DNA of 28,105 bases from a virus. Where the stretch lies: IMG/VR virus record IMGVR_UViG_3300020472_000134, positions 1 through 28,105 of that record. One strand, 5' to 3'. Numbering within the stretch: the stretch's first letter is position 1; the number at the start of each line of letters is the position of its first letter. Under the pieces are notes generated by a model. That model saw only the letters and a program-made list of their open reading frames with translations. It ran no database searches and was not told the origin of the DNA. Shown here in pieces: positions 4,394 through 26,218 of this stretch. The position numbers were made by a program, and so were the translations under genes.

Positions 4394-4401
4394 CAAAAAT
4401 A
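4394..4401 (-). promoter_or_regulatory. TAnnTTTG box exactly 4 nt before an ATG (gene 4237-4389)
   Basis: Minus-strand TATTTTTG, then TTAT, then ATG. It lies directly after the T-tract of the terminator at 4403-4436, so a new transcript could begin at or beside the start codon. No convincing -33 TTG is present. Confidence 0.55.
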
Positions 4402-4402
4402 C

Positions 4403-4436
4403 AAAAAAAAAGCACCATAAAATTTACAGTGCTTTT
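4403..4436 (-). terminator. Rho-independent terminator after the PD-(D/E)XK gene
   Basis: On the minus strand the stem AAAAGCAC / GTGCTTTT (4429-4436 with 4408-4415) encloses a 13-base loop and continues into an uninterrupted run of nine T. It lies 27 bases after the stop of the gene at 4464-4823 and ends transcription of the accessory island before the connector operon. Confidence 0.8.
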
Positions 4437-4463
4437 GGTTGAAAAGAATAAAGAAAGAAAAAA

Positions 4464-4823
4464 CTATTTGAAGTCAAAGTTATTAAAAAATTTTGAATTT
4501 GAATTGTCCATACTTAACCTAATACTTTGTTGACCAACATTTTTGAAAATAAAGAATCCTTTATATAGATCTACCCATACTGCAAAATAATCAACATCAC
4601 CTGGTGAATAGACAATATGCCAATTTGCTTGTACTGTACTGCGATTCTTTTCTTTTGCTTTTCCTGTGGACTTTATTTGAACTCTATATATGTCTTTTCC
4701 TGTATCTGCAAGACAATCATAAACACAAGCATCTAATATAGGAAAGGAAACTATAATGCCTCTTTTTAAGCACTCTACACCGAATGAATATTCGGCAACA
4801 CAACCTCGTGTATTTACATCCAC
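4464..4823 (-). CDS. PD-(D/E)XK endonuclease-like protein, 119 aa
   Basis: A compact nuclease-like protein. Residues 7-20 (GCVAEYSFGVECLK) give the helix with Glu11, YDCLAD gives Asp36, and YRVQIKSTG gives the Q-x-K motif (Gln49, Lys51). The E...D...QxK order and the following VDYFAVWVDLYKGFFIF strands match the PD-(D/E)XK type found in Hjc-like resolvases and some intron-associated endonucleases. The start is GTG at 4823, with no in-frame ATG nearby, and a near-consensus TAACTTTA box lies just upstream. It sits between two terminators, so it can be expressed alone. Substrate unknown: a resolvase, a free-standing homing or host-nicking enzyme, or a counter-defence nuclease are all possible. 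Confidence 0.75.
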   Translation of the reverse strand: MDVNTRGCVAEYSFGVECLKRGIIVSFPILDACVYDCLADTGKDIYRVQIKSTGKAKEKNRSTVQANWHIVYSPGDVDYFAVWVDLYKGFFIFKNVGQQSIRLSMDNSNSKFFNNFDFK

Positions 4824-4828
4824 GATTG

Positions 4829-4836
4829 TAAAGTTA
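4829..4836 (-). promoter_or_regulatory. Degenerate TAnnTTT(G) box before the nuclease gene
   Basis: Minus-strand TAACTTTA, then five bases, then GTG. It differs from the perfect boxes by its last base and by one base of spacing, but it occupies the same place: directly after a terminator T-tract and just before a start codon. Confidence 0.35.
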
Positions 4837-4868
4837 AAAAAAAGTGGCTAAACTTAATTAACCACTTT
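4836..4868 (-). terminator. Rho-independent terminator between the small-gene operon and the nuclease gene
   Basis: The minus-strand stem AAAGTGGTTAA / TTAGCCACTTT contains one G-U pair, has a 6-base loop (4852-4857), and is followed by a T run. It separates the small coupled genes (4921-5413) from the nuclease gene. A second small perfect hairpin TACACT-TTT-AGTGTA lies nearer the stop at 4921 but lacks a T-tract immediately after it. Confidence 0.75.
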
Positions 4869-4920
4869 CAAACTAACTAATCACTATGAAAAACACAATT
4901 ACACTAAAAGTGTAAATATC

Positions 4921-5100
4921 TTAAATATTTTGCTCTAATTCATCTATCTCATAAACCTTTTTCATAATTTCATAATAGTTATCAGAATTTATTTTTTCTT
5001 TTTTATTTATCAATTTAGCATTTATAAGTTTTAAAATACTTGTTACAAGTGATGTTGGCTTGTATCTTTTAAATTCAATATTTTCTTCAGGTTTTTCCAT
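4921..5100 (-). CDS. Small hypothetical protein, 59 aa, third gene of the island operon
   Basis: The start MEKPEENIEFKRYKP at 5100 is chosen because its ATG shares one base with the TAA of the preceding gene (TAATG); the in-frame ATG 27 bases upstream would lie inside that gene. The product is charged and helical, with SLVTSILKLINAKLIN as an amphipathic helix and an acidic C-terminus (YEIDELEQNI). It has no membrane span and no recognised motif. It is cotranscribed with two small membrane proteins, so a cytoplasmic partner of them is a reasonable guess, nothing more. Confidence 0.6.
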   Translation of the reverse strand: MEKPEENIEFKRYKPTSLVTSILKLINAKLINKKEKINSDNYYEIMKKVYEIDELEQNI

Positions 5101-5309
5101 TATGCTATTAAATAAATAAATGCCCAAAATAGATCTGTAAACATTTGTGCAATACCATCTGCATAGTAAAATAAAAAGTTAATTATCATAATTAACCAAA
5201 ATGTACCTAATCCTAATCCCCAACATATATACTTGACAATTCTTCTTGTATATTCATAATCAGTATTCATATTGAGGTCTCGTTTTGTTGCTTTATATAC
5301 TACTTTCAT
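5100..5309 (-). CDS. Small membrane protein, 69 aa, two hydrophobic segments
   Basis: The start MKVVYKATKRDLN at 5309 is fixed by a TAATG overlap with the 34-aa gene upstream; a longer in-frame start at 5366 would overlap that gene by nearly 60 bases. After a basic N-terminus come a long hydrophobic segment (ICWGLGLGTFWLIMIINFLF, about residues 28-47) and a second one at the C-terminus (MFTDLFWAFIYLIA). It therefore looks like an inner-membrane hairpin. Such small membrane proteins in accessory islands are often superinfection-exclusion or lysis-timing factors, but no family is recognised here. Confidence 0.65.
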   Translation of the reverse strand: MKVVYKATKRDLNMNTDYEYTRRIVKYICWGLGLGTFWLIMIINFLFYYADGIAQMFTDLFWAFIYLIA

Positions 5310-5413
5310 TAGTGAGTTATTATACAAATTAATGTGTGTATTGAAAAATAAATTGCTGCAAACCAAATAATTGGCATTTGCAATTTTTCTATGATTCTTA
5401 TTATTTTTTCCAT
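5309..5413 (-). CDS. Single-span membrane microprotein, 34 aa
   Basis: A short frame MEKIIRIIEKLQMPIIW followed by FAAIYFSIHTLICIITH. An amphipathic N-terminal helix leads into one hydrophobic span reaching the C-terminus. Support for its reality comes from position: it is the first gene after a consensus promoter (5513-5542), its ATG is preceded by an A-rich stretch typical of Bacteroidetes ribosome sites, and its TAA shares a base with the ATG of the next gene (TAATG). The same TAATG linkage is repeated at the next junction. Function unknown. Confidence 0.6.
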   Translation of the reverse strand: MEKIIRIIEKLQMPIIWFAAIYFSIHTLICIITH

Positions 5414-5596
5414 TTTTTAATTAATTTTAAAGTTAACACCCAAACCCTCGCACTACAGCTAATAAGCCAGATCTTTGATATTGAGAGTTTAGGTATAACT
5501 ATTTTCATTAGACAAAAGTAATTAAATCATTGATAAAAACAAAAAATTCTTTAAAAAAGATAATTTATTTAATATTTATTACTATATTAGGGTATT
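5414..5596. promoter_or_regulatory. Divergent control region between the minus-strand small-gene operon and the plus-strand gene
   Basis: This is the only divergent intergenic region in the window. On the minus strand it holds a strong promoter (5513-5542) and about 90 bases of leader containing a G-rich stretch (GAGGGTTTGGGTGTTAAC). On the plus strand it should hold the promoter of the 54-aa gene, but I find no clean TAnnTTTG there. No RNA family is recognised in the leader. Confidence 0.5.
5513..5542 (-). promoter_or_regulatory. Bacteroidetes-type promoter driving the small-gene operon
   Basis: The minus strand shows TTG (5540-5542), exactly 19 bases, then TACTTTTG (5513-5520). This matches both halves of the known Bacteroidetes consensus (TTG, 19-21 bases, TAnnTTTG) and is the best complete promoter in the window. 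Transcription should begin near 5506, giving a leader of about 90 bases. Confidence 0.75.
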
Positions 5597-5761
5597 ATGT
5601 TAGATCAAAATAAAAAAAGAAAATTCGCATTATTCAGAAATGAGAGTTGGACTTCTTTTACAGCTTGGTGGTTTACAGGTTATGGAACTAAGCAACAAAT
5701 ACACTCAAAGAAGTTTGATAATCATAAAGAAGCTGAACAGTGGATAGAGGATAATAAATAA
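5597..5761 (+). CDS. Only plus-strand gene: small aromatic, basic protein, 54 aa
   Basis: A 55-codon frame beginning MLDQNKKRKFALFRNESW and ending FDNHKEAEQWIEDNK. The middle is unusually aromatic (FTAWWFTGYG, with four Trp in all). It is preceded at a sensible distance by AGGG, one of few Shine-Dalgarno-like sequences here, and followed directly by a GC-rich hairpin shared with the capsid gene. The layout (divergent promoter region, convergent terminator) is that of a real gene. The final F-x-x-x-x-E-A-x-x-W pattern resembles the end of small beta-alpha domains, but no family can be named. A regulator or a moron factor are both possible. Confidence 0.6.
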   Translation: MLDQNKKRKFALFRNESWTSFTAWWFTGYGTKQQIHSKKFDNHKEAEQWIEDNK

Positions 5762-5784
5762 AAAAAGGGGCATAAAGCCCCTTT
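5761..5784. terminator. Bidirectional terminator between the capsid gene and the plus-strand gene
   Basis: Perfect stem GGGGC / GCCCC around a 5-base loop (5772-5776). On the minus strand it is followed by seven T, making a strong stop for the capsid transcript. On the plus strand it is followed by TTTAATT, a weaker stop for the 54-aa gene. Confidence 0.85.
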
Positions 5785-5810
5785 AATTATATATACTCTA
5801 AATCTTATGA

Positions 5811-7019
5811 TTATAGAGCTGCTATTACTGTAGCGAAATCTCCTCTACAAAAAGCATTTGGTAAATAAGTAGTGAAAGCGATTCTTTCTTGAACTCTAAC
5901 TGTGATAAAGTTCTTTTGAACATTATCAGAATCTTGGTCAAAAAATTCAACACTTACATTTTCTCTTACCCATAGTTGAGCTCCTTGAGAGAAGTTACCA
6001 ACTATAAACTCACCTTGTGCCATAGAAGTATTAATCATTACAGGAATACCCATAAATGTTGGCTGAAGTCCTTGATAAACTTGGTCTTTCAGATATCTGT
6101 TGTCAGAATCTTTAAGAGCAAGGATCTTGTGGAAATCAGTAGGATGTAGAAGTATGTAATCACATCTGTAGTTTTGTTTTGCAACTTGGTTTACAGCAGT
6201 AATTAATACATCAAACTCTTGTGGGTTTGCGAAATCAGCAGCACCAAAACCTGATGCACCAGTACTCCAAATAGTACCTGTATTTCTCAAACCGTGTAAA
6301 TTAGGTGCAGCACCATTTCCTCCAAGTAACTGGTCATCTTCTACTGTTAAAAGTTTAGCAGGAACTCTTGCAGAAATATAAGAACTTAATTGTTCTGTAT
6401 CTTCAAGCATTTGTCTTGATAATCTTAAATAAGTACCGATTGTTTCAACATTAGCTGTTGAAGCAGTTAAGTTAAAGTCAGTTTGCCCTAATGCACTACC
6501 CTCTGAAGTTGCAGCAGCACCCTCTGTGTAAGCTGATTCTGTTACATATCTAATAAGATCAGAGTTAGTTGTTCCAATAGGAAGCATCTGTCTTATATGA
6601 ACAGGAGTAGTAGGATCATATTTAATACCTGGAGCTCTTGTAGCAGCGATTACCTCGCCAGTATAGTCAGCACCAGTTGTCATATCGGCTTTAATTTCAA
6701 ATGCTGCTGCTCTTGAATTACCTTTTTTAAGGTTGTCAATAGCACCACCATCAATCGCTGATTTTAAAGCTGATTTAAAAGTAGCAGGTGCAGTAGCTTT
6801 TGCTTCAAGTTTTTTACTTGAAACTTCAATACTATCTAATCTCTTTTGCACTTCTTCGTGCTTTGTTGAGATTTGTTCAGTTAAGTTGTCTATTTCACCT
6901 TTTAGTGATTCAGAAACTTCACCTTTAGCATTATCTTTAGCCGACACCATTGCTTTTTCGATTTTAGAATCAACCAAATCTCCGAGTTGGTCTAATTCCT
7001 TTTTCGTTTCATCTGTCAT
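5811..7019 (-). CDS. Major capsid protein, HK97 fold
   Basis: A 402-residue protein of the HK97 phage capsid family. Residues 1-75 are a charged coiled coil (LDQLGDLVDSKIEKAM, LTEQISTKHEEVQKRLD), equivalent to the delta domain that serves as an internal scaffold and is removed by the prohead protease; the cut probably falls near residues 95-112. The mature part shows the conserved phrases VETIGTYLRLSRQMLED, CDYILLHPTDFHKI and FMGIPVMINTSM. It follows the protease gene by 5 bases and is closed by a strong terminator. A high-level late product is expected. Confidence 0.95.
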   Translation of the reverse strand: MTDETKKELDQLGDLVDSKIEKAMVSAKDNAKGEVSESLKGEIDNLTEQISTKHEEVQKRLDSIEVSSKKLEAKATAPATFKSALKSAIDGGAIDNLKKGNSRAAAFEIKADMTTGADYTGEVIAATRAPGIKYDPTTPVHIRQMLPIGTTNSDLIRYVTESAYTEGAAATSEGSALGQTDFNLTASTANVETIGTYLRLSRQMLEDTEQLSSYISARVPAKLLTVEDDQLLGGNGAAPNLHGLRNTGTIWSTGASGFGAADFANPQEFDVLITAVNQVAKQNYRCDYILLHPTDFHKILALKDSDNRYLKDQVYQGLQPTFMGIPVMINTSMAQGEFIVGNFSQGAQLWVRENVSVEFFDQDSDNVQKNFITVRVQERIAFTTYLPNAFCRGDFATVIAAL

Positions 7020-7024
7020 AATTT

Positions 7025-7735
7025 CTATGATTTTAATTTATTAAACAAATATTTATATATCTCGCTATTATCTGCTTTAATTGTAGTCGGCTCTGTAACT
7101 TCCATATCAGTTGGCAAAGTGGCTTTATCATTAAAAATTGATTTTAGCTTTATAAGTTCTGCCTCTATGGCATAACCTAAATTGTCAGATATGCTGCCCT
7201 TGCGAATTAACTTCACAAGATTATCATATCTACCCAATACTTTTTCCTTATCAAAATTCCCTTTTACATCAAGTATCATTGCTTCATCATTTGCAGCTAA
7301 AGTAACTGCAGATATTTCATACAATTTTACCTCTGTAAGTTTTCTATAACAATTTTCCATTCCATCAGGGCAACCCTCTTTTTGTAGTGGTAATATACCA
7401 ACACTATTTTCAGTTATTACTCCTGCTTTCATAAGTTCTAATACATCTTTACCAAGTTGAGTTTTAGGAATCTCTGCTTCAAACATTAATCCTTTTTCAT
7501 CTTCATAAAGATTAACCATTTTTCCTAATGGCTTATCCATTTGATGTTGGTATAGATATTTTACTCTATTACCATTTTCAGATATTGTTTTAGTATAAGC
7601 ACCTTTTGTGATTATATCGCCATCTGAATCAATGTTGCCAAAAATTGAACCATAACCCTTTACGATTCCTGTCTTATCATCTATGTCCTGAAGTTCCCCT
7701 ATCGGACTTGATTTATATATTATATTATTTTCCAT
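7025..7735 (-). CDS. HK97-type prohead protease (peptidase S78/U35)
   Basis: A 236-residue protein with the prohead protease pattern: VKGYGSIFGNIDSDGDII and GAYTKTI near the N-terminus, LYQHQMDKPLG giving the likely catalytic His64, and ENSVGI giving the likely Ser111, followed by LYEISAVTLAANDEA. It should cleave the capsid delta domain during maturation. Residues from about 160 form a charged C-terminal extension typical of proteases that include their own scaffold tail. Its ATG stands exactly four bases after a perfect TAACTTTG box, so protease and capsid may be transcribed from here independently of the upstream head genes. Confidence 0.92.
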   Translation of the reverse strand: MENNIIYKSSPIGELQDIDDKTGIVKGYGSIFGNIDSDGDIITKGAYTKTISENGNRVKYLYQHQMDKPLGKMVNLYEDEKGLMFEAEIPKTQLGKDVLELMKAGVITENSVGILPLQKEGCPDGMENCYRKLTEVKLYEISAVTLAANDEAMILDVKGNFDKEKVLGRYDNLVKLIRKGSISDNLGYAIEAELIKLKSIFNDKATLPTDMEVTEPTTIKADNSEIYKYLFNKLKS

Positions 7736-7739
7736 AATG

Positions 7740-7747
7740 CAAAGTTA
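7740..7747 (-). promoter_or_regulatory. TAnnTTTG box exactly 4 nt before the protease ATG
   Basis: Minus-strand TAACTTTG, CATT, ATG, located in the short gap after the MuF-like gene. It matches the -7 consensus fully; no clear -33 TTG is seen. It is one of six boxes at identical spacing. Confidence 0.55.
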
Positions 7748-7758
7748 TTAATTTTCAC

Positions 7759-8652
7759 TTAATTATTTTCTGGTGTATCGCTATCTAAAATTTCTTCTAC
7801 AACAGCAACAGTTGCGACTGTTTGTGCAACTGCACCTACAATGTCAATAATTCTTCCTGAACTTACATTTTGTTCAACCTCTATTGGAAATGGTGCTGTA
7901 GTACAACGACAGTTGATTACATTCCAAGCAGAACCTGATGGATCACCAGGTCTTTCTAACTTTTGTCCACCTACAATAAAGTTTTCTTCCATCTTAACAA
8001 TTTGTCCATCTGCTTCAATATGCTCTAATCTTGTTCTGTTATCTCTTGTTGCTATCCACTCTTTTTGTAAATTTTCTTTTCCAAAAACATCAATAGCACT
8101 TTGATTGGTTGCATAATTAGCAGCATTTACACTTTCTGTTCTAATAATTCTTTTAGCATTTACAATGCTTATATGTTTAAACTTTTTTCTTAATACTCTT
8201 TGAGCTTGTCTTTCATTCATTACTTGAAACTCTGGATTAGCCATATACTTATTAAGTGTTTTTATTAATTCCTTTTTCCTATTGCCACTTACACTAACAA
8301 TTCTTTCTCCTGCTGTTGCTTTTCCAATAAATGCAAATTTCTCTGACCATATATCTTGAAACTGACTTGCATCTTGCTTTCTTATATACTTTTTATAATT
8401 ATTCATATACCAATTTGCCATTCGTAGTCCAATATCTTTATAAAGACCTATATATAGATTTTCAAACTGATCTAAAGTATAATAAGCATCTACATTTTGA
8501 ATATTCTTATTATTAGCTAAAAACTCATCAATTATCTTATTAGCTTCTCCATTTAGATAATCAAACCATATCTTATCTTGTTTTTTCTCGCCAACCTCTA
8601 ATTGCTTTAACCAATTCTTATGAAAATTTGCTTTTATTTTTTTAATGTCCAT
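7759..8652 (-). CDS. Minor head protein, Mu F / SPP1 gp7-like
   Basis: A 297-residue protein. The C-terminal half carries the phage head morphogenesis domain: NAKRIIRTESVNAANYATNQSA, WIATRDNRTRLEHIEADGQI, and the closing motif SAWNVINCRCTTAPFP with the paired cysteines. The N-terminal half is helical and basic (MDIKKIKANFHKNWLKQLEV). Members of this family are minor capsid proteins, sometimes injected, that attach to the portal. The position between portal and protease genes is canonical. A hydrophobic Ala/Val stretch near the end (VGAVAQTVATVAVVEEI) is unusual and could be a helix that inserts into the capsid or into membrane. Confidence 0.88.
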   Translation of the reverse strand: MDIKKIKANFHKNWLKQLEVGEKKQDKIWFDYLNGEANKIIDEFLANNKNIQNVDAYYTLDQFENLYIGLYKDIGLRMANWYMNNYKKYIRKQDASQFQDIWSEKFAFIGKATAGERIVSVSGNRKKELIKTLNKYMANPEFQVMNERQAQRVLRKKFKHISIVNAKRIIRTESVNAANYATNQSAIDVFGKENLQKEWIATRDNRTRLEHIEADGQIVKMEENFIVGGQKLERPGDPSGSAWNVINCRCTTAPFPIEVEQNVSSGRIIDIVGAVAQTVATVAVVEEILDSDTPENN

Positions 8653-8667
8653 AAAAGAATAATTAAA

Positions 8668-10284
8668 TTATATTGACCAATCCTTTTTCTTTCCTGTTCT
8701 TCTTAACCATTCTTCGTGAGTTTTAAATGGCATATAATAAACCTCACCTTGATACCTGTGAATATGATGACCAGATCCTCCAAGTTCTTTTGCTCTATCT
8801 TCAGCTTCCCTGATAGTTGTGTATTTATCAGGACCTACTTCAGTAGCTGCTCTTTTTTCTTCTACTTCCTCTTTCTTATCATCTTTTATATCATTTAGTT
8901 TTACATCATAAAGTTCACTAAAGTTTGTTTCTAAACTTTTAAAGTCATCTTCAATAATATCATCTTCTAATGGCATTAGATTGGCAGGAATATAAAAATC
9001 GTTTAACTTTTCATTATCAGCATCAATACTATATGACATTGCCTGTCTTTTTTCATTTGGTGTTAGCCACCAAGCACTATTCATCTGATTTACCACTTTA
9101 TCCATTTCTTCTTGTAATTCTGAAATATTAGTGTAATCAAAATCTATATATATTTTTTCGCCATAAGCAGGTGCTAACCATCTATTAAGCTCATCACGAA
9201 CTTTATTAAGTTCTGGAATAATAGCATTTTGGTATAAACTCTTTTTAGCTTCTATTACATTATTGTAAGTTGATGATTCTGTATTGTTAAGTAAAACAAC
9301 AGGAACTGAATAAATATTACATAAATCTTTAATTGAAGCATTATACTGCTCAATAAGTGAAAGATCAGCAGCAGTCATTCCAAAATTAACCCAAGATAAT
9401 TTTTTAGGAGTAATAACAATATCTCCTGCATTTTTAGATCCTGAATAATTATTTCTAAACTTCTCTTTTAATGCTTGTGCTTGAACTTCGTTTAAATCTC
9501 CCTCCTCTGACATTAACACTCCTCTTGCAGTTTGATTCTGTAAATATTTCGCACCAGTCGTTACTGCTTCGTTATTAGTATCTAAAGCTCGTAATCCTGC
9601 TTTTAGTGGCGACATTCCGTAAAGGTGCGATCCTGTACCATCATAGTAAGGATTAAAATCTTTAATATGGCAAACATCTTCAACAGGAATATGATAATTA
9701 CCATTATAATCTAATGTATAAGATTTTACAGGTTCAAATATCCCACCACTATTAATCTCAACATTTTGACTTGGCAAAACATAAAGTTCCTGGAATTTAC
9801 TTTGATTAGGACCTGATTCAGGTTTTATACCATAGATATATCTATTACCTGTTAATTTACCAAAAGCTATTATCTCTTGAATCCAACTACTATAACTTTG
9901 TGCAGGATTCGGTCTTTCAAGTAGTTCGTGTAATTCTGTATCGTGTAGTTCCTGTAGTGAGTGTTTTCTTAATATCTCTGCTTTATGCATACTCGTACCA
10001 TTTGCAAGACCACTTGTAATTGACTTATACCTTTTTAAGTCATTTTCGCTTTTAACCTCATAAACATTAAAAGGAATTGTTGATGCTGTTTTTGCTATTA
10101 AATTAACTATTGAATAAATAGTTGTATTTTGTCTATAACCTTTGTTAACATAAGTTTCATCATTATCAGGATTCCATAAAATAGAATTACCCAAATAATT
10201 GAATATTGCTTTGTTAAAATCTATACTTGTCTTTTGAAAGTTTTTTGAAACTAATTTTCCAAACCTGTCTAATATTGATGCCAT
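8668..10284 (-). CDS. Portal protein, HK97 family, with C-terminal extension
   Basis: A 538-residue protein. The N-terminal 400 residues show the HK97-type portal pattern: YRQNTTIYSIVNLIAKTAST, then ELLERPNPAQSYSSWIQEI, GNRYIYGI, HIKDFNPYYDGTGSHLYGMSPL and IYSVPVVLLNNTESSTYNN. It forms the dodecameric ring for DNA entry. After about residue 430 comes a charged linker and then a separate 50-residue module (TIREAEDRAKELGGSGHHIH, YYMPFKTHEEW) that is not part of the portal core and resembles C-terminal modules seen on other marine phage head proteins (from memory). A TATTTTTG box lies 20 bases before the ATG. Confidence 0.93.
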   Translation of the reverse strand: MASILDRFGKLVSKNFQKTSIDFNKAIFNYLGNSILWNPDNDETYVNKGYRQNTTIYSIVNLIAKTASTIPFNVYEVKSENDLKRYKSITSGLANGTSMHKAEILRKHSLQELHDTELHELLERPNPAQSYSSWIQEIIAFGKLTGNRYIYGIKPESGPNQSKFQELYVLPSQNVEINSGGIFEPVKSYTLDYNGNYHIPVEDVCHIKDFNPYYDGTGSHLYGMSPLKAGLRALDTNNEAVTTGAKYLQNQTARGVLMSEEGDLNEVQAQALKEKFRNNYSGSKNAGDIVITPKKLSWVNFGMTAADLSLIEQYNASIKDLCNIYSVPVVLLNNTESSTYNNVIEAKKSLYQNAIIPELNKVRDELNRWLAPAYGEKIYIDFDYTNISELQEEMDKVVNQMNSAWWLTPNEKRQAMSYSIDADNEKLNDFYIPANLMPLEDDIIEDDFKSLETNFSELYDVKLNDIKDDKKEEVEEKRAATEVGPDKYTTIREAEDRAKELGGSGHHIHRYQGEVYYMPFKTHEEWLRRTGKKKDWSI

Positions 10285-10304
10285 CTAAATATCTTTATAT
10301 TTTA

Positions 10305-10312
10305 CAAAAATA
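10305..10312 (-). promoter_or_regulatory. Candidate -7 promoter box, 20 nt before the portal gene
   Basis: Minus-strand TATTTTTG followed by TA, in the gap after the terminase gene. The 20-base spacing to the ATG is identical to that at the major tail protein gene. The -33 half is not evident. Confidence 0.4.
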
Positions 10313-10316
10313 CTAA

Positions 10317-11507: not shown

Positions 11508-11851
11508 TCTATAAGTGTTGATTTAATTGATCCATCGTGTTGGATTTCTTGTCGTTCAATATAACCTCTTTTTTTCCCTTTTGTTTTTAGTAGGAATATT
11601 GTAGCAGTTGTATTGCCCTCACTAATTTGCTTATGAAGTTGTGATTCTGCGAAATCTAAAGCGATATTTTCAATGTCTTTTACCTTTTTAGCAAATTCTT
11701 CATCTTCTTTTAGATATTGATAAAAAGTAGTTCTACCCACTTTAGCAATCTTACAAGCACTTGTAACAACTCCTAATGATTTTTCTAAAGCAGTGAGCAA
11801 TGCTTTTTTAGTATGTTCTTTTTTGTTTGTTTTCACTTTACAAAAGTACAT
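11387..11851 (-). CDS. terS: Terminase small subunit (TerS)
   Basis: DNA-recognition subunit of the packaging motor. Residues about 15-60 form the helix-turn-helix (LTALEKSLGVVTSACKIAKV, then GRTTFYQYLKEDEEFAKKV), followed by helices for oligomerisation (LDFAESQLHKQISEG, TIFLLKTKGKKRGY). The last 40 residues are charged and low-complexity and lie over the TerL start. The ATG at 11851 directly abuts a terminator T-run and has no room for a leader. A GTG at 11836, giving a protein that begins (M)KTNKKEHTKKALL, stands exactly four bases after a perfect TACTTTTG box and is a strong alternative start. Confidence 0.85.
   Translation of the reverse strand: MYFCKVKTNKKEHTKKALLTALEKSLGVVTSACKIAKVGRTTFYQYLKEDEEFAKKVKDIENIALDFAESQLHKQISEGNTTATIFLLKTKGKKRGYIERQEIQHDGSIKSTLIEWKPPQEEKLSKDATDNSTTLSNQKKDSKSIKEEQDQEKQ
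11841..11848 (-). promoter_or_regulatory. TAnnTTTG box exactly 4 nt before the alternative TerS start (GTG 11836)
   Basis: Minus-strand TACTTTTG, TAAA, GTG. It lies between the terminator T-run and the GTG. A TTG occurs 16 bases upstream inside the hairpin, shorter than the usual 19. If it acts as a promoter, a transcript would start at or near the GTG and exclude the ATG at 11851. Confidence 0.5.
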
Positions 11852-11876
11852 AAAAAAAACCCACCAAATAGGTGGG
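11852..11876 (-). terminator. Rho-independent terminator before the packaging genes
   Basis: Minus-strand CCCACC / GGTGGG stem with loop TATTT and a run of eight T. It ends the transcript of the gene at 11903-12397, separating the small replication-side genes from the packaging and head operon. Confidence 0.9.
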
Positions 11877-11902
11877 CTTGATTTTAAAACAATGATTTAG
11901 GA

Positions 11903-12397: not shown

Positions 12398-12407
12398 TTT
12401 AATTATT

Positions 12408-12854: not shown

Positions 12855-12858
12855 ATTA

Positions 12859-12866
12859 CAAAGTTA
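12859..12866 (-). promoter_or_regulatory. TAnnTTTG box exactly 4 nt before the 57-aa gene
   Basis: Minus-strand TAACTTTG, TAAT, ATG, beginning on the base after the primase-helicase stop codon. It matches the -7 consensus fully, without a clear -33. Confidence 0.55.
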
Positions 12867-17429: not shown

Positions 17430-17460
17430 AAAAAAAGGGAGTATAATTAAATACCCCCTT
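17430..17460 (-). terminator. Rho-independent terminator after the SSB-like gene
   Basis: Minus-strand stem GGGGGTAT / ATACTCCC with one G-U pair and a 6-base loop, then seven T. It follows the SSB-like gene by about ten bases and would limit read-through into the exonuclease and primase genes, separating the recombination genes into two transcripts. Confidence 0.8.
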
Positions 17461-17767: not shown

Positions 17768-17776
17768 AATTTAAAT

Positions 17777-18274: not shown

Positions 18275-18485
18275 TTAAAATAGTTTTTAAGTTAAAATTT
18301 AATTCTTTCAAATTTTCAATATCCTTTAAATTTAAAGTTTGAGGATTTTTGATTTTTGAATTTAATGTTGGCATAGTCATTTCTAACTTATCTGCCACAT
18401 CTTTTTTCTTTAGACCTAATCGCCTAATATTATCAATGAACTCTATCTCAAATTCAGTAATAAAATCACTTATATTTATACTCAT
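18240..18485 (-). CDS. Small helix-turn-helix protein, 81 aa (XRE-like)
   Basis: The start MSINISDFITEFEIEF at 18485 follows the stop of the upstream gene by 10 bases; an upstream non-optimal start would lie inside that gene. Residues about 17-62 (FIDNIRRLGLKKKDVADKLE, MTMPTLNSKIKNPQTLNLKD, IENLKELNFNL) follow the five-helix pattern of Cro/CI-type domains: helix, K-K-x-x-V-A-x-x-L, turn, T-x-x-S-K. It may regulate the replication operon it heads or be a small Cro-like protein. Without an integrase or repressor pair in view, it does not prove lysogeny. Confidence 0.72.
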   Translation of the reverse strand: MSINISDFITEFEIEFIDNIRRLGLKKKDVADKLEMTMPTLNSKIKNPQTLNLKDIENLKELNFNLKTILNESNKNSESST

Positions 18486-18495
18486 AATATATAAT

Positions 18496-18756
18496 TTACC
18501 ATTTACCCAAAGGACAAACTGATGTTGGAGATAATGCTTTTGCATCTATTGAACAACCACAACCATTTACAATTTGACCTGTAACAAGATGTTCACCACT
18601 CATTAGTGGATTACACACCCTCCCTTTTCTCATTTTACAAAAATGACAATTCGCCAATCTGGTTTGTGCAAGTTCTTTGGTTTGTTGATCTAAAGTTCCA
18701 AATTTATCTTTTATCAAATTACCCCAACCATCAAATATTTCTTTGAATAAACTCAT
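18496..18756 (-). CDS. Cys-rich zinc-binding-type protein, 86 aa
   Basis: The protein starts MSLFKEIFDGWGNLIKDKFG and carries CHFCKMRKGRVC (Cys37, 40, 48), then GQIVNGCGCSIDAKAL and CPLGKW at the end. The six cysteines in C-x-x-C ... C ... C-x-C ... C order suggest one or two zinc sites. Proteins of this design, beginning with a W-containing amphipathic helix and ending CPLGKW, are, from memory, common in phages and prophages of Bacteroidetes. Function is unknown. It is the first gene after the tail operon and may open the replication operon. Confidence 0.68.
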   Translation of the reverse strand: MSLFKEIFDGWGNLIKDKFGTLDQQTKELAQTRLANCHFCKMRKGRVCNPLMSGEHLVTGQIVNGCGCSIDAKALSPTSVCPLGKW

Positions 18757-18764
18757 TAAAAGCT

Positions 18765-18804
18765 AAATTAAAAAAAATTTTCTAATAAAAAAAATATTTT
18801 ATTA
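18765..18804 (-). terminator. Possible AU-rich terminator at the end of the tail operon
   Basis: Perfect 8-base inverted repeat TAATAAAA / TTTTATTA (18783-18790 with 18797-18804) that includes the stop codon of the tail gene. It is followed a few bases later on the minus strand by eight T. It has no GC pairs, so termination would be weak. Confidence 0.35.
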
Positions 18805-20076
18805 ATCTTCGTAGTAAGTTTGAATAAAACTTTTAATATCATCATTTTGATTTGGCAAGTGCATAACAATAGAATATTCATTTGATTTTACTTTAAATTC
18901 CATTGAATCTATCATAGCAGAAACAGGATCTTGTAAAACATTAGTTCCAAAATTTACCCATACTTTATTATGAAATTGTATAGGATCTTCTGAAACATCT
19001 TTTCTATAAAAATCTCCCTCATATCTTTTTACACTTGTTCTATAGTCATTAATAATTTCTTGCGATATAATGCCATCTAAAGTTTGTGATTCATCAAAAT
19101 TTTTCCTTTTATATTCACCTTGTATTTTACCTAAAAATAATGAATCTTGTAGGTTGTTTGTATTATAAACTTCTTCTCTTTCATAAGTACCTGTTAATTT
19201 ACTTTCTTGAATAACACCACCTAAAGTATAAATTCCATATTCTCTTTTTTCTGCATATTTCTTTCCTAAAGTATTTCTGTTTGCAATATAAATAACATCA
19301 TAATAATTAGTTCTTAAAGATGTTTCTCCTGTACTACTTCTAAAAGGAGGGTATATTTCTACTTTAATTCTTGGAGATTCATTTGTAGTTTGTGGTGCAT
19401 TTAAAATTTGTGTAAATTTCACCCATTGATTCATACTATTTGTTTGTATTTTTTTAAAATATTTATCAGCAGTATAACTTCCAGATCCTGCTTCAAATTT
19501 ATTATCTTCAAAATTATATCCCATATCTATACTTCCATTACCTGTTGTGTCAAGACCTGCTGTAATATAAAATATATAACTATCTCCACCACCACCCCAA
19601 GTATTAAAATAATAATTAAAGCCAAATTCTATATCTGAACCTGTATTGATATATGTTTTTAAAATTTCATTTGTAATTATAGCTGTTCCTTTATCTGTAT
19701 CTACTATTGGCATAACTGTTTGTTGTGATTTTAAAAAATAACTTCCTGAAACAGGTATAGGATCAAGCACACCTTGAAGTTGCACAGAATTACCTGTACT
19801 TATAGACCAGTTATAATTTTTATATCTAAAAGTTGGATTTTTATTTATAGTATCGGCTTTATTAAGTTCTGTTCTTAAAATAACATTTCTTAAAGGTCTT
19901 AAATATTCTATTGATAAATTCTCATTTATTGGTTGTATATTATTTGGGACACTTACTAAAACATCTTTTGTAACTGTTCCTTTTGCACTTCCTGTATAAT
20001 CAAAAATATAGAATTTTATATTTTCTTTACCATTAGTTTGCAATAAATTTAATTGTTGTTCTCTTATAGTTGCCAT
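18802..20076 (-). CDS. Tail structural protein, 424 aa
   Basis: A long protein starting MATIREQQLNLLQTNGKENI. Its first 110 residues form a strand-rich domain; residues about 110-250 carry a lectin-like jelly-roll look (SYFLKSQQTVMPIVDTDKGT, FGFNYYFNTWGGGGDSYIFY, DKYFKKIQTNSMNQWVKFTQ). The last 200 include RNTLGKKYAEKREYGIYTLGG and end MEFKVKSNEYSIVMHLPNQN. No enzyme motif is seen. Position in the tail operon and composition favour a baseplate, tip or side-fibre component, possibly a carbohydrate-binding one (inference). It is separated from the large tail protein by two glycosyltransferase genes and has its own TAATTTTG box four bases before the ATG. Confidence 0.65.
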   Translation of the reverse strand: MATIREQQLNLLQTNGKENIKFYIFDYTGSAKGTVTKDVLVSVPNNIQPINENLSIEYLRPLRNVILRTELNKADTINKNPTFRYKNYNWSISTGNSVQLQGVLDPIPVSGSYFLKSQQTVMPIVDTDKGTAIITNEILKTYINTGSDIEFGFNYYFNTWGGGGDSYIFYITAGLDTTGNGSIDMGYNFEDNKFEAGSGSYTADKYFKKIQTNSMNQWVKFTQILNAPQTTNESPRIKVEIYPPFRSSTGETSLRTNYYDVIYIANRNTLGKKYAEKREYGIYTLGGVIQESKLTGTYEREEVYNTNNLQDSLFLGKIQGEYKRKNFDESQTLDGIISQEIINDYRTSVKRYEGDFYRKDVSEDPIQFHNKVWVNFGTNVLQDPVSAMIDSMEFKVKSNEYSIVMHLPNQNDDIKSFIQTYYED

Positions 20077-20080
20077 ACAA

Positions 20081-20088
20081 CAAAATTA
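20081..20088 (-). promoter_or_regulatory. TAnnTTTG box exactly 4 nt before the 424-aa tail gene
   Basis: Minus-strand TAATTTTG, TTGT, ATG. The first three bases are also the TAA stop of the sialyltransferase-like gene. Full -7 match; no clear -33. Confidence 0.55.
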
Positions 20089-20583
20089 ACTAATTATATT
20101 TACATTTAAGGACTTGATAATTTCATATTCTTTTTGAGGATTATGCAATTTTCCCCTAACTTCTGAATCTCCGTAATGATGTTTTTTTGTACCCCACCAA
20201 TCAAAACCAATAATATCAACATTGCAATCAAAATAATATATAGCTATAAGTCCTGTTGATGGAAACCCAAGTGGTATTTTTTTTAAAACATTTTTATCTA
20301 CTTTTTCGACATCAGGTCTTTGTTCTCTTAATTCTTTATACATTTTACATTTATCTTTGTCTGCCCAAGAATGAACTACAACTTTATCAAAAGTGTTTAT
20401 TTTATCAAAATGATGCCTGTTTACAGTAAACCAAACATTTGTTCTATTGCCAACAAATCTTTCATATCCATTTAATTTAAAACTATTAAATCTAACTATT
20501 ATAGAATAAGTGTTTATTATATTTGAATATTCTTTATCTAATAAACTCGTTCCATTTCCAACTAACAAAATTTTATTTTTCAA
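20086..20583 (-). CDS. Sialyltransferase-like glycosyltransferase (GT29-type motifs)
   Basis: A 165-residue protein with all the sialyl motifs in order: VGNGTSLL (8-15) and IVRFNSFKLNGYERFVGNRT (L-motif), GFPSTGLIAIYYF (106-118, S-motif), GFDWW (126-130), and H-N-P-Q-K-E (His147 to Glu152), the H-x4-E of motif VS. GT29 enzymes move sialic acid or a related sugar from a CMP donor to a glycan. It starts with TTG in a TTGA overlap with the preceding glycosyltransferase stop; no ATG could be used without losing the first motif. The protein is short for the family but the motif set is complete. Likely targets are host glycans, or glycosylated tail proteins encoded next door (inference). Confidence 0.8.
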   Translation of the reverse strand: MKNKILLVGNGTSLLDKEYSNIINTYSIIVRFNSFKLNGYERFVGNRTNVWFTVNRHHFDKINTFDKVVVHSWADKDKCKMYKELREQRPDVEKVDKNVLKKIPLGFPSTGLIAIYYFDCNVDIIGFDWWGTKKHHYGDSEVRGKLHNPQKEYEIIKSLNVNIIS

Positions 20584-21482
20584 AGTGCTTCAATTAATAG
20601 TTGATAATAATTATAAGATGACTTGTTAATATTAATGTCTAAATTTTTAGGTGGCACTTCTGAAAGCCAATTACCTTTATAAAAAAGTTTGTTTTTTGTA
20701 TTAGTAACTCCTGCATTATGAAAAATAGCTTTTCTTGTCCAAAACTCTTTAGGATCTGTCGCCCAAATAAAATCCATTTCTTTAATAATTTTTGTTTGTT
20801 TTTTTTCTATCCATAAATTCCAAAGGACTGCCCACATATCAGCACACCAAATTTGAAGTTCGTGATAATTTTCATCTAACACTTTTAGTTTTTTATTCAT
20901 CTGATGAATATTTTTATAAAGCTGAACACAATCTTTTTCTACATTTTCCCAAAATTTATAATCTATGTTTTTTAATAAATATTGAGCCCCACCACTATTT
21001 TCTTCATTATCTTTTACTGTTTTTTTATCAAGATCAAAACAATGTAACATTCTATCTAAAACAGCTTCACCTTTTGATACTATATAATTATACCCAATAT
21101 AGCTTTTTGTGTCGCTTAAATAACAAATTTCATCATCTAAATACTGTTCTATATTTAATGGTCTTGTAAGTGCAATATCGCAATCGTGATATAAAAAAGC
21201 ACCTTTATATAGTTCTGGAAACTTTACAAAATGTTTTTTTAATATATGAGGTCTTATGCTTGAAACATAAAATTTATCTTCTCTTGTGTCAGGGTAATAG
21301 TAAAAATTAACATCTTTATATTTATCTTTTAGCTTATTATAGTAGTTACAATTTTCATTATTATCAGCTAATATTATATCTATTTGGTCTTGTTTTACCC
21401 CATTATTAATAAATGAATAAATCATTATATCTATTTGCCAAGCATAATAAAGTATTGCAGGTTGAGCTGAAATATATCTCAT
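20580..21482 (-). CDS. GT-A type glycosyltransferase, 300 aa
   Basis: A 300-residue protein opening MRYISAQPAILYYAWQIDIM, with IDIILADNNENCNYY and VNFYYYPDTRED forming the alternating strands of a nucleotide-sugar domain. The metal-binding DxD is at YHDCDIAL (Asp100, Asp102). Downstream come YIGYNYIVSKGEAVLDRML, the acceptor-side helix WCADMWAVLWNLWIEKK and FHNAGV near the end, a pattern like GT8- or GT77-type enzymes. It overlaps the sialyltransferase-like gene by four bases, so the two are made together and probably act in sequence on one acceptor. It follows the large tail protein after 9 bases. Confidence 0.75.
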   Translation of the reverse strand: MRYISAQPAILYYAWQIDIMIYSFINNGVKQDQIDIILADNNENCNYYNKLKDKYKDVNFYYYPDTREDKFYVSSIRPHILKKHFVKFPELYKGAFLYHDCDIALTRPLNIEQYLDDEICYLSDTKSYIGYNYIVSKGEAVLDRMLHCFDLDKKTVKDNEENSGGAQYLLKNIDYKFWENVEKDCVQLYKNIHQMNKKLKVLDENYHELQIWCADMWAVLWNLWIEKKQTKIIKEMDFIWATDPKEFWTRKAIFHNAGVTNTKNKLFYKGNWLSEVPPKNLDININKSSYNYYQLLIEAL

Positions 21483-21491
21483 AAAGTCATT

Positions 21492-24212
21492 TTAAGGACA
21501 AGCAGGGCAATTTGTATTAGTTAATGTTGATCCACTCCAAAAATAATAAGTTTGTCCATCATCTGTAAAATATGTTCCAGGATCTACTGTTTTTGAACAA
21601 TCAGATGCTTTATATACTATCGTAGCATTTGCTAAAGATGAAGCAGTAATATAAAAAGTAGTAAGTGTTGTTACATTACAACAAGCATCAGTTTGTGATG
21701 TAGTTGATGCAAAAACTTGAACTGCAGAACATTGTTGTACTGTTGTTGTAAATGCTTGTGTTGTAGTGGCTACTGCATTACAAGCAGTACAATTTGCATA
21801 AGATGTAAAATTACCAACTGCACCATCAGGACCAACACTTATATTTCCACTTTGAGCTTCAAAACACTCGTTGTTATCTTTTATAACATTTGGAAAAGAA
21901 TTTGTTGTATTTGATACTTTTCTAACTGCACCTGTAGGTTCACCACAAGTAATATATTTTTTATAATATACAGTAGGTGGTGCTGTAGTTGATGTAGTTG
22001 GTGCAGCAGTCGTGGTTATTCCTTGACAAGCAGCACAATCACTAAATCCTGTAGTATAATCTCTTGTTACCCATTCTGAAGAAGTTTCTTGTGTTTGCTG
22101 ATACTTGAAAAAACATTCATTACTTGAATTTTTGATTATCTCTGGGAAATTACTATTTGTGTTACCAACACTAATTAACTGATCCATACCTCCTGTTGCA
22201 CAATCTCTATAGTGCATAAAATGAGTTAATGGTGGTGTTGTTGTTACTGCTGATGTTGTTGTTGTAATATTACATACACTCGCTATTGTTGGAAGCCCTG
22301 ATGTACTACCTGCAACCTCATCACTAATAATTTTATAACAATTTGAAGCATCTACAGATAATATAACATTTGAATTTATAGCAAAAGAAGCATTTTTAAC
22401 AACAAATCTTTCAAAACCATCTGATAATCTTCTTACAACATATATATTAGCATTTGGAAAAACAGTTGTAGATGTTGTTACAGGTGCTTTAGTTGTTGTT
22501 GTTGCAGGTGCTACTGTTGTTGCAGGAACTTGTGTTGTTGCACAAGAACCACTTATTGTTGGTAAAGCAGATACAGTAGATGGATTAGAAACATATTTAG
22601 ATCCCACAACTATATAACAGGTTGAACCACTATTTGATAAAGTAACATTACCACCAACTGCAAAAGATGTATTGTATTGAGCATCAAATACTGTTCCATC
22701 CGAAACCCTACTACATAAATGAACATTATGGCTATACATTCCTTGAACAGTACCATAAGCAGTCGCAACACCATTTGTTGCATAAGGTATCATATAATAT
22801 AAAGTTCCTGTTGCACTAAAAGTAAATGTTTTAGTTAAAGTATAATCTCCTAAAGATGTTCCTGATACTATGTTTTTATTTGCAGGAGTTATTGTTTGTG
22901 TTGTTCCAAAATAAAACCCTCTTTGTGTTAAAGCTGTACCTCCATTTGATGATATTGAAGCATCTAATTTCATAGCTGTTCCTGTAACTTCCGATATTTT
23001 TGTTTTTGTATTATCAAATACAGGAGCTCCAGATGTTGTGGCTAAAGTAGTTGTTGGTTGTGCTACTTTATCTACTGTTGCACCAACTCCCTCACCTGCA
23101 GAATTTACTGCATAAGCAGTTATATAATATCTTGTGCCTGATGATAGACCTGTTTTTGCAGAATTAAAAGTACCTGTTGTTCCTGCTACAGTTATTTTAG
23201 GTGTGTTATTAAGATAGTTTGAACTTGTACCAAAATAAAAACCTCTTTCTATAATACCAAGTCCATTATCCGAAGTAACATTTCCATTTAATGTCATTGA
23301 TGATGATGTAGGATTAGTTGGTGCAAGAGTTTCTACAGTTGGAATTAATGGCGATTGTGTTGTTGTTTGAACAGGTACAATAGCTTCATCATAATAATTA
23401 CTATTTGAAATTATATACCAAGAACCATTTGATTGAAATATCCTTGCATTTATAATTCTTAAAATATTTTCTAAAACTTCCTTTGCATTTCTTTTTGAGA
23501 AATCATCCATTAATGAAAACTCATTTAAAAGTATATCGTGTAATAAAGTTAAATCTGGCGAAGCAGTTGTTGATCTTATTTTATTTTGTATATAAATATC
23601 AAAATTCAAATCTAAATTTTGTAATATTTTATATACATAGGAAAAAGCAGAATCAAAGTTAGTTTGTAAACCAGTATTTATAGCACCTGTTCCATCTAAT
23701 AAAATTTCACCATCAGGTTGCTCAAAAGAATCTAATGTTCCAAGACCATCTATTGCTTTTAATGTTAATATATAAGGAGTAGAAATAAATTGCTCTCTAT
23801 AAGCATCTGACACTAACCAACCCTCCCAATAAATATCAACATCACCTGAACTATCCCAAAGATTATTAGCTTCATTCCAAAGTTCTGTTTCAGCTTCCCA
23901 TAAAGTATCTACTACAGTACCACTTGTACCACTTCCTGAACTTAATCTAACTTTATATTGCCTTTCATCAAATACCTGAAACTCATCATAGCTTGTAGTG
24001 TCTGTAACATATAAATTTATAGTACAAGTAGAACCGATTATCGGTGTGTAAAAATCATCATCATTTTCCCAAGCAATAGTAACAGGTTCTTCCCCTGCAA
24101 CCATTTGTGTTACTGTACCAAAATAATTTTTAGATAAAATTTCTAATGTTCTTTCATTTCCCTTTACATCAGAAAATGACAATGAATATTTTGTTCTATA
24201 TGTAGTCGCCAT
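21492..24212 (-). CDS. Large tail protein with FN3-like domains, Cys repeats and mucin-like linkers
   Basis: A 906-residue protein downstream of the tape measure. Residues 1-285 look like a tail hub or baseplate domain (YRTKYSLSFSDVKGNERTLE, LHDILLNEFSLMDDF, ILRIINARIFQSNGSWYII). Residues about 290-386 and 396-490 are two FN3-like repeats sharing RGFYFGT and a T-x-Y-Y-x-x-x-Y-A-x-N strand. Then come two copies of a Cys repeat (about 497-557 and 588-648, each with R-x-S-D-G), two copies of another (664-729 and 748-812, each with NSxFPxxIK...NEC), and a Cys-rich tail. Thr/Pro/Ala linkers lie at 559-585, 650-662, 732-747 and 814-826. It is probably the host-binding tail tip. The linkers resemble O-glycosylated mucin segments, and two glycosyltransferase genes follow. 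Confidence 0.8.
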   Translation of the reverse strand: MATTYRTKYSLSFSDVKGNERTLEILSKNYFGTVTQMVAGEEPVTIAWENDDDFYTPIIGSTCTINLYVTDTTSYDEFQVFDERQYKVRLSSGSGTSGTVVDTLWEAETELWNEANNLWDSSGDVDIYWEGWLVSDAYREQFISTPYILTLKAIDGLGTLDSFEQPDGEILLDGTGAINTGLQTNFDSAFSYVYKILQNLDLNFDIYIQNKIRSTTASPDLTLLHDILLNEFSLMDDFSKRNAKEVLENILRIINARIFQSNGSWYIISNSNYYDEAIVPVQTTTQSPLIPTVETLAPTNPTSSSMTLNGNVTSDNGLGIIERGFYFGTSSNYLNNTPKITVAGTTGTFNSAKTGLSSGTRYYITAYAVNSAGEGVGATVDKVAQPTTTLATTSGAPVFDNTKTKISEVTGTAMKLDASISSNGGTALTQRGFYFGTTQTITPANKNIVSGTSLGDYTLTKTFTFSATGTLYYMIPYATNGVATAYGTVQGMYSHNVHLCSRVSDGTVFDAQYNTSFAVGGNVTLSNSGSTCYIVVGSKYVSNPSTVSALPTISGSCATTQVPATTVAPATTTTKAPVTTSTTVFPNANIYVVRRLSDGFERFVVKNASFAINSNVILSVDASNCYKIISDEVAGSTSGLPTIASVCNITTTTSAVTTTPPLTHFMHYRDCATGGMDQLISVGNTNSNFPEIIKNSSNECFFKYQQTQETSSEWVTRDYTTGFSDCAACQGITTTAAPTTSTTAPPTVYYKKYITCGEPTGAVRKVSNTTNSFPNVIKDNNECFEAQSGNISVGPDGAVGNFTSYANCTACNAVATTTQAFTTTVQQCSAVQVFASTTSQTDACCNVTTLTTFYITASSLANATIVYKASDCSKTVDPGTYFTDDGQTYYFWSGSTLTNTNCPACP
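21735..22538 (-). repeat. Low-complexity Thr-codon tracts in the tail protein gene
   Basis: Four tracts, at 22458-22538, 22227-22265, 21972-22019 and 21735-21773, consist mainly of ACT/ACA codons (TTG/TGT triplet runs on the plus strand) and encode the Thr/Pro linkers between Cys-rich repeats. Similar tracts could recombine with each other and change the number of domains. Confidence 0.7.
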
Positions 24213-26206
24213 TACTTAAATCTGTTTCTGTTTCTTTCAGCTCTTTGTAGTGCAACAACTAAATCTTGACCTCTTAAAACAAACTCTCCTTGCATTGCAC
24301 CACCACCAATCATTGATTTTAATTTTGATAAAGGTGCTACCACCTCTGGATTACTTCTTGCACCTGGATATTCGCCAATTAATGCAGTTGTAGGTCCTGA
24401 TACAATACCACCACTTGCCATTTTTTTAAATCCTTTTTCCTGAACCGAAGATGCTATAGCTTTTATTAATGTACCTAATGTAAATGCTGCTAATCCTGCA
24501 GCGAAACCTACACCAGGTATAGCAAAGGTTTTAGCTAATTCTGATGCTGCCATTGCTGCCATACCCATTTGAATCAATAAATCTCCTATAACACCTAACA
24601 TTGCCATTGCAAAACTTTCAAAACTTCCACTTGCATTTGTAAAAGCACCTGATAAGGAATTTGCAAAACCTGTTAGGAAAGGTGTCATTAAATCTATATT
24701 ACCTTTTACTGATTCAGAAACTGAAGAAAAATCAGCATCAGCATTAACTTTAAAATCAGTAATTTTTGTTGTTAAATCATTCATATACATTGTAAAGCCG
24801 TTGATATGATTTGACATTTTTGGCAATTCTTTATCTATAACACCTGATAAGGTCGTAAACCCTGTACCCATCATAAATGGATTTATTCCTAAAAATCCAC
24901 CACCCATTGCAGAATCTCCTAAAAGTGTTGTTCCTGAATCACCTCCTGTATCTCCTGGTGGTGTTGATGTCGGAAATTGTGTTTCTCTTGTACCTGTAAA
25001 AGTAAGTGGATCTGCAAATGCTAAAGATGGTATGTCAATTATTTTTTGAGTTGTTTTATCTATTGTTCTTTGTAATTCATCTAATTCATTTCTTGCATCA
25101 ATAGAACTTTGAATTAATGGTGAAAATATTTGTGATGGTGCTAATTGAGTTTTACCCAATGTTTTTAAAATATCTCTTAATTTTATATTAAAACTATCCA
25201 TTATTCCAATAATGGCAGTAAGACCTATAACCCACGGATTAAATCTACCAAATACACTTTTTAATGATTTGCCAACTTTTCCAATCCACCTCCAAAAACT
25301 TGCGAAAGCACCTATAGCTATTGCTAAAAGACCTCCTTTAGCTACTAAAGAACTTAAATTAAACATTGCTTCTTTTGTAGAACTATCTAAATTTTTAAAT
25401 GCTGTTGTTGCTTTTTTAATTTCTTGTGTAAGTTTTGGAATACCGTTTTTTAAATCTAAAATATCAACTATTTCTTGACCAAGTTCTGCAAGTGCTATAT
25501 TAACATTATCTTTTAAAGTTGAGAATAATCCACTAATAGTTGTACTTAATGTTTCCATACCATTATGGAATTTACCACCCTCACTTGTGGCATCTTTAAA
25601 TGCTTGATTTAAAATATCAAAGGTTATCTTACCCTCTGAAGCCATATCCATTATTTCACCCCTTGCAACCCCCATAGAAGTAGCTAAAATGTCTAATATC
25701 GGCACTCCATTATTAATAAACTGTCGTAGGTCTCGTGTCATAACCCTACCCTCTGCTGCAGCTTGACCAAAAGCAATTCCTATTCCTTGTAAATCACCAC
25801 CAACAATTCCTGAAATATCACCAAGCATTGACAAACTATCAAATGCTTCATTTGAAGATAAACCAAATCCCATTAACATATTATTGACATCTACAAGTTG
25901 ATCTAATTGAAATGGTGTCTTTGCACTAAACTCAACTAATTTTTCAAAAGCAGCAGCACCCTCTTCTGCAGATCCTGTTAAAGTGTTTAATTTTATTCTT
26001 AATGTTTCAAATTTTGCAGCTTGTTTTACTGCAACACCACCTGCTAATGCTAATGGTGCAGTAAATCTCATTGTAATATCTCTACCAACAGCCCCTATAT
26101 CTCTTGCAAACGAATTTAATTTTCCCTTTGCTCTACCAATTTTTTGATTGAACTTATCAGTATTTGCAATAAAATCTACTCGTAATTTATTATTAAAATC
26201 TGCCAT
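24212..26206 (-). CDS. Tail tape measure protein
   Basis: A 664-residue protein. The N-terminal part carries the tape measure domain: NSFARDIGAVGRDITMRFTA, QAAKFETLRIKLNTLTGSAE, LVEFSAKTPFQLDQL, AAAEGRVMTRDLRQFINNG and MASEGKITFDILNQAF. It is followed by hydrophobic helices (LAIAIGAFASFWRWIG, WVIGLTAIIGIMDSF and an Ala/Gly-rich stretch near 560-610) that may insert in the host membrane. It sets tail length; with the usual rule of about 0.15 nm per residue the tail would be about 100 nm or less. Its ATG stands four bases after a TATTTTTG box, and its stop overlaps the large tail gene start (TAATG). Confidence 0.93.
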   Translation of the reverse strand: MADFNNKLRVDFIANTDKFNQKIGRAKGKLNSFARDIGAVGRDITMRFTAPLALAGGVAVKQAAKFETLRIKLNTLTGSAEEGAAAFEKLVEFSAKTPFQLDQLVDVNNMLMGFGLSSNEAFDSLSMLGDISGIVGGDLQGIGIAFGQAAAEGRVMTRDLRQFINNGVPILDILATSMGVARGEIMDMASEGKITFDILNQAFKDATSEGGKFHNGMETLSTTISGLFSTLKDNVNIALAELGQEIVDILDLKNGIPKLTQEIKKATTAFKNLDSSTKEAMFNLSSLVAKGGLLAIAIGAFASFWRWIGKVGKSLKSVFGRFNPWVIGLTAIIGIMDSFNIKLRDILKTLGKTQLAPSQIFSPLIQSSIDARNELDELQRTIDKTTQKIIDIPSLAFADPLTFTGTRETQFPTSTPPGDTGGDSGTTLLGDSAMGGGFLGINPFMMGTGFTTLSGVIDKELPKMSNHINGFTMYMNDLTTKITDFKVNADADFSSVSESVKGNIDLMTPFLTGFANSLSGAFTNASGSFESFAMAMLGVIGDLLIQMGMAAMAASELAKTFAIPGVGFAAGLAAFTLGTLIKAIASSVQEKGFKKMASGGIVSGPTTALIGEYPGARSNPEVVAPLSKLKSMIGGGAMQGEFVLRGQDLVVALQRAERNRNRFK

Positions 26207-26210
26207 AGTA

Positions 26211-26218
26211 CAAAAATA
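26211..26218 (-). promoter_or_regulatory. TAnnTTTG box exactly 4 nt before the tape measure ATG
   Basis: Minus-strand TATTTTTG, TACT, ATG, located just after the stop of the frameshifted chaperone frame. Full -7 match; the nearest TTG upstream is only 13 bases away. Confidence 0.55.

Follow-up and report, generated by a model that had tools for sequence, protein, structure and literature searches.

Why should a promoter-like box stand at one and the same distance from the start codons of several genes of a phage? The window analyzed here comprises 28,105 nt (positions 1 to 28,105 of IMG/VR record IMGVR_UViG_3300020472_000134) and belongs to a marine phage. A preliminary description had pointed out TAnnTTTG boxes exactly 4 nt upstream (N4) of six start codons on the minus strand and had predicted leaderless late mRNAs from them, leaving room for a modified promoter recognition or a translational signal. 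All identified genes of the window run in the minus direction. Comparison with PHROGs identified the small and large terminase subunits, portal, protease, capsid and connectors among the packaging and head genes, and additionally endolysin, holin, primase-helicase, replication initiator, exonuclease, Erf, major tail and tape measure proteins. Judged by portal and primase, the closest isolates are mostly phages of Cellulophaga, Tenacibaculum and Flavobacterium with about 27–37% amino acid identity, and the host of the phage is probably to be sought among the flavobacteria. A scan of genome contigs for the host yielded seven loci with one near relative only, which has 59% identity and comes from a MAG with the label Rhodobiaceae; no host emerged from it. 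When 24 kb of the window were compared with phage records by megablast, there were zero matches, and tRNA and Rfam scans of the window were both empty.

Boxes at a fixed distance from start codons

All six boxes were recovered at their positions, exactly 4 nt before the start codon (Table 1); as described, five of the six continue with G-T, and three of the six with GTA. Scanning both strands for TAHHTTTG with a start codon 0 to 12 nt further on revealed a seventh site, at 5508, that had been missed, whereas the same scan of the plus strand of the window found no N4 box with an ORF. All seven boxes match TAHHTTTG, meaning that G is absent from the two free positions. The motif TAnnTTTG as such is no more frequent in the window than expected (38 observed, 52 expected), yet it peaks at N4, indicating that the enrichment is positional. 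Seven boxes in the 40 upstream regions of the window were located at N4; N18 is represented once and N20 twice. Dinucleotide shuffling, repeated 3000 times, gave a mean of 0.04 and a maximum of 2 at N4, and six or more boxes were never obtained at any spacing from 0 to 20. The earlier assertion that the identical spacing exceeds what base composition would give is borne out by this comparison with shuffled sequence.

Table 1. Boxes, terminators and a small ORF of the window; N4, N5, N18 and N20 give the nucleotides between box and start codon.
Feature	Position	Strand	Sequence	Spacing and start	Context
Leadered box	1416..1423	(-)	TATTTTTG	N18, ATG 1397	
N4 box	4394..4401	(-)	TATTTTTG-TTAT-ATG	N4, ATG 4389	heads 50-aa ORF 4237-4389 and connector genes
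Intrinsic terminator	4408..4436	(-)			hairpin and T-run; ends 6 nt before box 4394-4401
Degenerate box	4829..4836	(-)	TAACTTTA	N5, GTG 4823	
Intrinsic terminator	4840..4869	(-)			abuts degenerate box 4829-4836
35-aa ORF	5401..5508	(-)			after capsid gene, under the seventh N4 box
N4 box	5513-5520	(-)	TACTTTTG-TCTA-ATG	N4, ATG 5508	seventh site
N4 box	7740..7747	(-)	TAACTTTG-CATT-ATG	N4, ATG 7735	head maturation protease, then capsid gene
Leadered box	10305..10312	(-)	TATTTTTG	N20, ATG 10284	portal
N4 box	11841..11848	(-)	TACTTTTG-TAAA-GTG	N4, GTG 11836	terminase small subunit (TerS)
Intrinsic terminator	11857..11879	(-)			ends 8 nt before TerS box
N4 box	12859..12866	(-)	TAACTTTG-TAAT-ATG	N4, ATG 12854	57-aa gene directly after primase gene
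N4 box	20081..20088	(-)	TAATTTTG-TTGT-ATG	N4, ATG 20076	424-aa gene without family match (putative tail gene by position)
N4 box	26211..26218	(-)	TATTTTTG-TACT-ATG	N4, ATG 26206	tape measure protein
Leadered box	27386..27393	(-)	TATATTTG	N20, ATG 27365	major tail protein

Conservation in related phages

The search for the motif in homologous genes of related phages, which had been proposed as a check, was run on about 240 loci from IMG/VR scans, and the start codon in each relative was taken as the codon aligned to the N-terminus of the homologue. The box stands exactly at N4 in 51 of 63 distinct upstream regions of TerS and in 34 of 39 of the protease. Before the 57-aa gene (12854), N4 was found in 24 and N3 in five of 42 distinct relatives, and before the gene at 20076 N4 was found in 11 of 17. 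The N4 spacing at 4389 recurs in the relatives L003 and L004, and that of the tape measure gene in L083; scans with the tape measure protein and with the 20076 product returned one relative contig apiece. At 5508 the N4 box heads a group of small genes after the capsid gene, and the 35-aa ORF with its N4 box was found again in a single close relative (L003/L086, one contig), in which the bases of box and spacer have changed. In two more distant relatives (L031 and L088), the homologue of the gene that follows the 35-aa ORF bears an N4 box of its own.

Among TerS homologues with at least 50% identity that were not selected on the box, 50 of 54 carry it, or 17 of 20 after clustering. In the TerS alignment the fixed columns of the box reach 1.4–1.7 bits, compared to about 0.6 in the flanking columns. 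The spacer is constant in length and variable in sequence, with 31 different 4-mers among 127 sites. After clustering, the spacings of all genes comprise two cases of N3, 51 of N4, three of N5 and one of N6, none from N7 to N12, and a remainder mostly at N13–N24, which results in two peaks. The gap between N6 and N13 suggests that an mRNA has either no leader or one of at least about 9 nt, a rule that can be tested for initiation independent of Shine-Dalgarno sequences. An ORF-based count that made no use of homology gave 144 boxes at N4 and none in the reversed-sequence control.

Two further traits agree with leaderless mRNAs. The start codons at leaderless spacing are ATG in 50 and GTG in seven cases and never TTG, placing a purine at the predicted +1, and Shine-Dalgarno-like motifs occur in only two of 924 upstream regions. 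No in-frame alternative start was found upstream at the N4 sites of the protease (34 of 34), the 57-aa gene (24 of 24) and the gene at 20076 (11 of 11).

For TerS the choice of the start codon is less simple. In the clade of the window (11841-11851, minus strand), an in-frame ATG at −15 adjoins the box (ATGTAnTTTTG); in the window it sits at the end of the terminator T-run. An ATG at −15 in frame and without an intervening stop occurs in 21 of 50 TerS relatives with N4 and in the window, and would probably be picked as the TerS start by gene callers. Other TerS relatives have ATGTAA at this place, i.e. a stop codon right after the upstream ATG, which rules it out as start in those phages. In the GTG clade of the window, a longer, leadered TerS product from the ATG at −15 is possible. 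A further point against the leaderless reading is that in E. coli non-AUG leaderless starts are inefficient (PMC9031893), and TerS starts with GTG here.

Two sites in the window lacking a strict N4 box show a similar arrangement in relatives. Homologues of gene 18756, which stands first in the replication operon, have a strict or a G-to-A box at N4–N6 in most relatives; in the window itself only a box with one mismatch (TAATTTAG) is present, at N6. The relatives of the 4823 site carry TAACTTTA or TAACTTTG at N4–N5 immediately 3' of a terminator, and the TAACTTTA-type box there perhaps represents a weaker variant class.

Predicted promoters with and without leader

In Flavobacterium johnsoniae, transcription starts 4 or 5 nt after the −7 box (PMC6847099), so that a box at N4 would place +1 on the start codon. 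G is virtually absent from the two free positions of the F. johnsoniae −7 box, and an AT-rich motif is found at −18 (PMC6847099). The N4 set likewise contains merely 0–2% C+G at −19 to −17. Leadered and N4 boxes are both AT-rich from −20 to −14 and have a consensus in common, with T at −16 (0.90 and 0.82), T at −4 and A at −3. At the fifth position past the box, 94% of the leadered sites have A; in the N4 sites this position is taken by the first letter of the start codon, A or G. Internal operon genes without a box have A at −12, −11, −5 and −3, a context that resembles the non-Shine-Dalgarno context described for the phylum.

Terminators adjoin several of the boxes (Table 1). Upstream terminators were detectable at only 22 of 57 leaderless-spaced sites (about 39%); for the leaderless-spaced TerS regions the figure is 15 of 18. 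A strong terminator-like hairpin also lies at 17435-17460 (minus strand) between genes 17767 and 17283, within the replication gene group. In the connector operon, the leaderless-spaced 50-aa ORF comes first in the lineage of the window, and several relatives have the box at N20–N21 of the adaptor gene instead. The portal box varies between N13 and N24 among relatives. Leaderless and leadered boxes at the same operon indicate that the promoter persists while the leader is variable; in the connector operon and in the TerS group of Flavobacterium phage 11b, the promoter thus appears to have stayed while a leader was gained or lost.

The conserved N4 spacing with variable spacer bases, the two-peaked spacing, the consensus shared with leadered genes, the abutting terminators and the published distance to the transcription start make it very probable that the seven boxes are ordinary promoters of the host sigma-A type, spaced for leaderless mRNAs. 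As sigma-A-type −7 elements of Bacteroidota (TAHHTTTG) at operon heads, they would be transcribed by the host polymerase, which would begin the mRNA with the start codon itself, at the A of ATG or the G of GTG. Translation would proceed by ribosome binding to the 5'-terminal start codon. The same promoter would serve the portal, the major tail protein and the gene at 1397, there giving leaders of at least about 9 nt, and in these mRNAs the A-rich non-Shine-Dalgarno context would be available. At several sites the promoter would directly follow the terminator of the previous operon, forming a terminator-promoter-start unit of about 45 bp. Of the predicted leaderless late mRNAs, the leaderless part is strongly supported by the comparison with relatives, whereas the term late is not: the sites mark operon heads, including the 57-aa gene after the primase gene and, in relatives, the homologues of 18756. 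That the lineage uses leaderless initiation as its main mode of starting operons and gains by it during infection seems unlikely to us; a gain might come about, for example, if altered or 70S ribosomes in infected cells preferred mRNAs without a leader to the leadered ones of the host.

A phage sigma factor or late activator that reads these promoters at late genes only could account for the many structural genes among the targets and for the missing −33 TTG, from which a phage-modified or extended recognition had been considered. The −33 TTG is indeed absent from the N4 sites. However, a −33 TTTG or TTG by the B. fragilis definition is absent from the leadered class alike, and in F. johnsoniae promoters a −33 motif is not evident (PMC6847099), so that the motif is dispensable in flavobacteria and a phage factor is not needed to explain its absence. 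Promoters of this kind would show a motif that is restricted to late genes and differs from the host promoter; the boxes instead represent the plain host consensus, as in the leadered promoters, and also stand at heads of non-structural operons in the window and in relatives. A Sigma70_r2 domain was not found in the record, which with 28 kb is possibly a fragment. We regard a phage factor as distinctly improbable.

The constant distance to the start codon recalls a ribosome-binding site, and the mRNAs of Bacteroidota are mostly leadered; the TAnnTTTG block at N4 might hence be a translational signal, contacted by the ribosome or S1 on longer mRNAs, and no promoter. The same block with its flanking consensus is also found 13–24 nt before other starts, at variable distance, and this occurrence in leadered genes led us to reject a translational role, which has a very low probability. 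The block moreover matches the published −7 promoter element, including the H positions, most internal operon genes have an A-rich context in place of it, and terminators lie immediately upstream at 4389 and 11836. Alternatively, the promoters could be real and the starts, which were set by homology, misassigned, with translation beginning at a codon further downstream on an mRNA that has a leader. This is extremely improbable: the assigned starts match the N-termini of the aligned homologues, N4 is exact across families, and misassignment would scatter the spacing, yet N7–N12 is empty. Chance occurrence of a frequent motif (38 copies) in an AT-rich genome can practically be dismissed in view of the shuffles, the conservation of N4 in relatives and the reversed-sequence control.

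Comparison with known systems

The boxes resemble the sigma-A (sigma-ABfr) promoters of Bacteroidota as characterized in F. johnsoniae (PMC6847099) in the box itself, the positions lacking G, the AT-rich −18 region and the absence of a clear −33 motif. Leaderless mRNAs of Bacteroidota hosts likewise have a −7 box promoter and start at or beside the start codon, as predicted here. They differ in frequency. According to published figures, leaderless mRNAs account for 5.5% in F. psychrophilum (PMC9723704), about 3.7% of mRNAs have leaders below 10 nt in B. thetaiotaomicron (PMC7366714), and 87% of the predicted transcripts of F. johnsoniae have leaders longer than 10 nt (PMC6847099). Compared to the share of about 4–6% in the hosts, the predicted share in the phage lineage is far higher and is conserved at orthologous operon heads: box-bearing starts in relatives split about evenly between N3–N7 and N12–N30. 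In seven other flavobacterial phages, about nine boxes at N3–N5 were counted against 37 at N13–N30. The difference between 57:32 in non-redundant relatives and 9:37 in these phages (Fisher p 8e-7) is a guide only, as a clustered, homology-based set is set against an unclustered, ORF-based one. In phi10:1, the homologue search with a gene bearing an N4 box returned that gene only.

Flavobacterium phage 11b has the same arrangement at TerS as the window, with a terminator, TATCTTTG, N4 and an ATG at 4930; its genome contains only one N4 and one N5 site. The annotated TerS start of phage 11b (L251:4858-4930) is a TTG at 4858, upstream of terminator and N4 box, and the true start is, by this arrangement, probably the ATG at 4930. 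Some relatives of the phage 11b TerS keep N4 and two have the box at N16. The N4 rule may improve start-codon calls and expose small genes of flavobacterial phages, such as the 35-aa ORF of the window and TerS in phage 11b.

In the largely open-access literature consulted, we found no report of leaderless mRNAs in phages of Bacteroidota. Transcription of a phage gene without a leader is known for lambda cI (PMC3160421 for leaderless initiation; PMC9031893 names cI). This is one mRNA in a host with Shine-Dalgarno initiation, in contrast to about seven predicted operon heads in a presumed non-Shine-Dalgarno host here. With the relatives, predicted leaderless genes can be compared in large number for a phylum without Shine-Dalgarno initiation, side by side with matched leadered promoters of the same genomes. 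While leaderless mRNAs are known from Bacteroidota, their predicted prevalence in one phage lineage, at about half of the box-bearing starts, is new.
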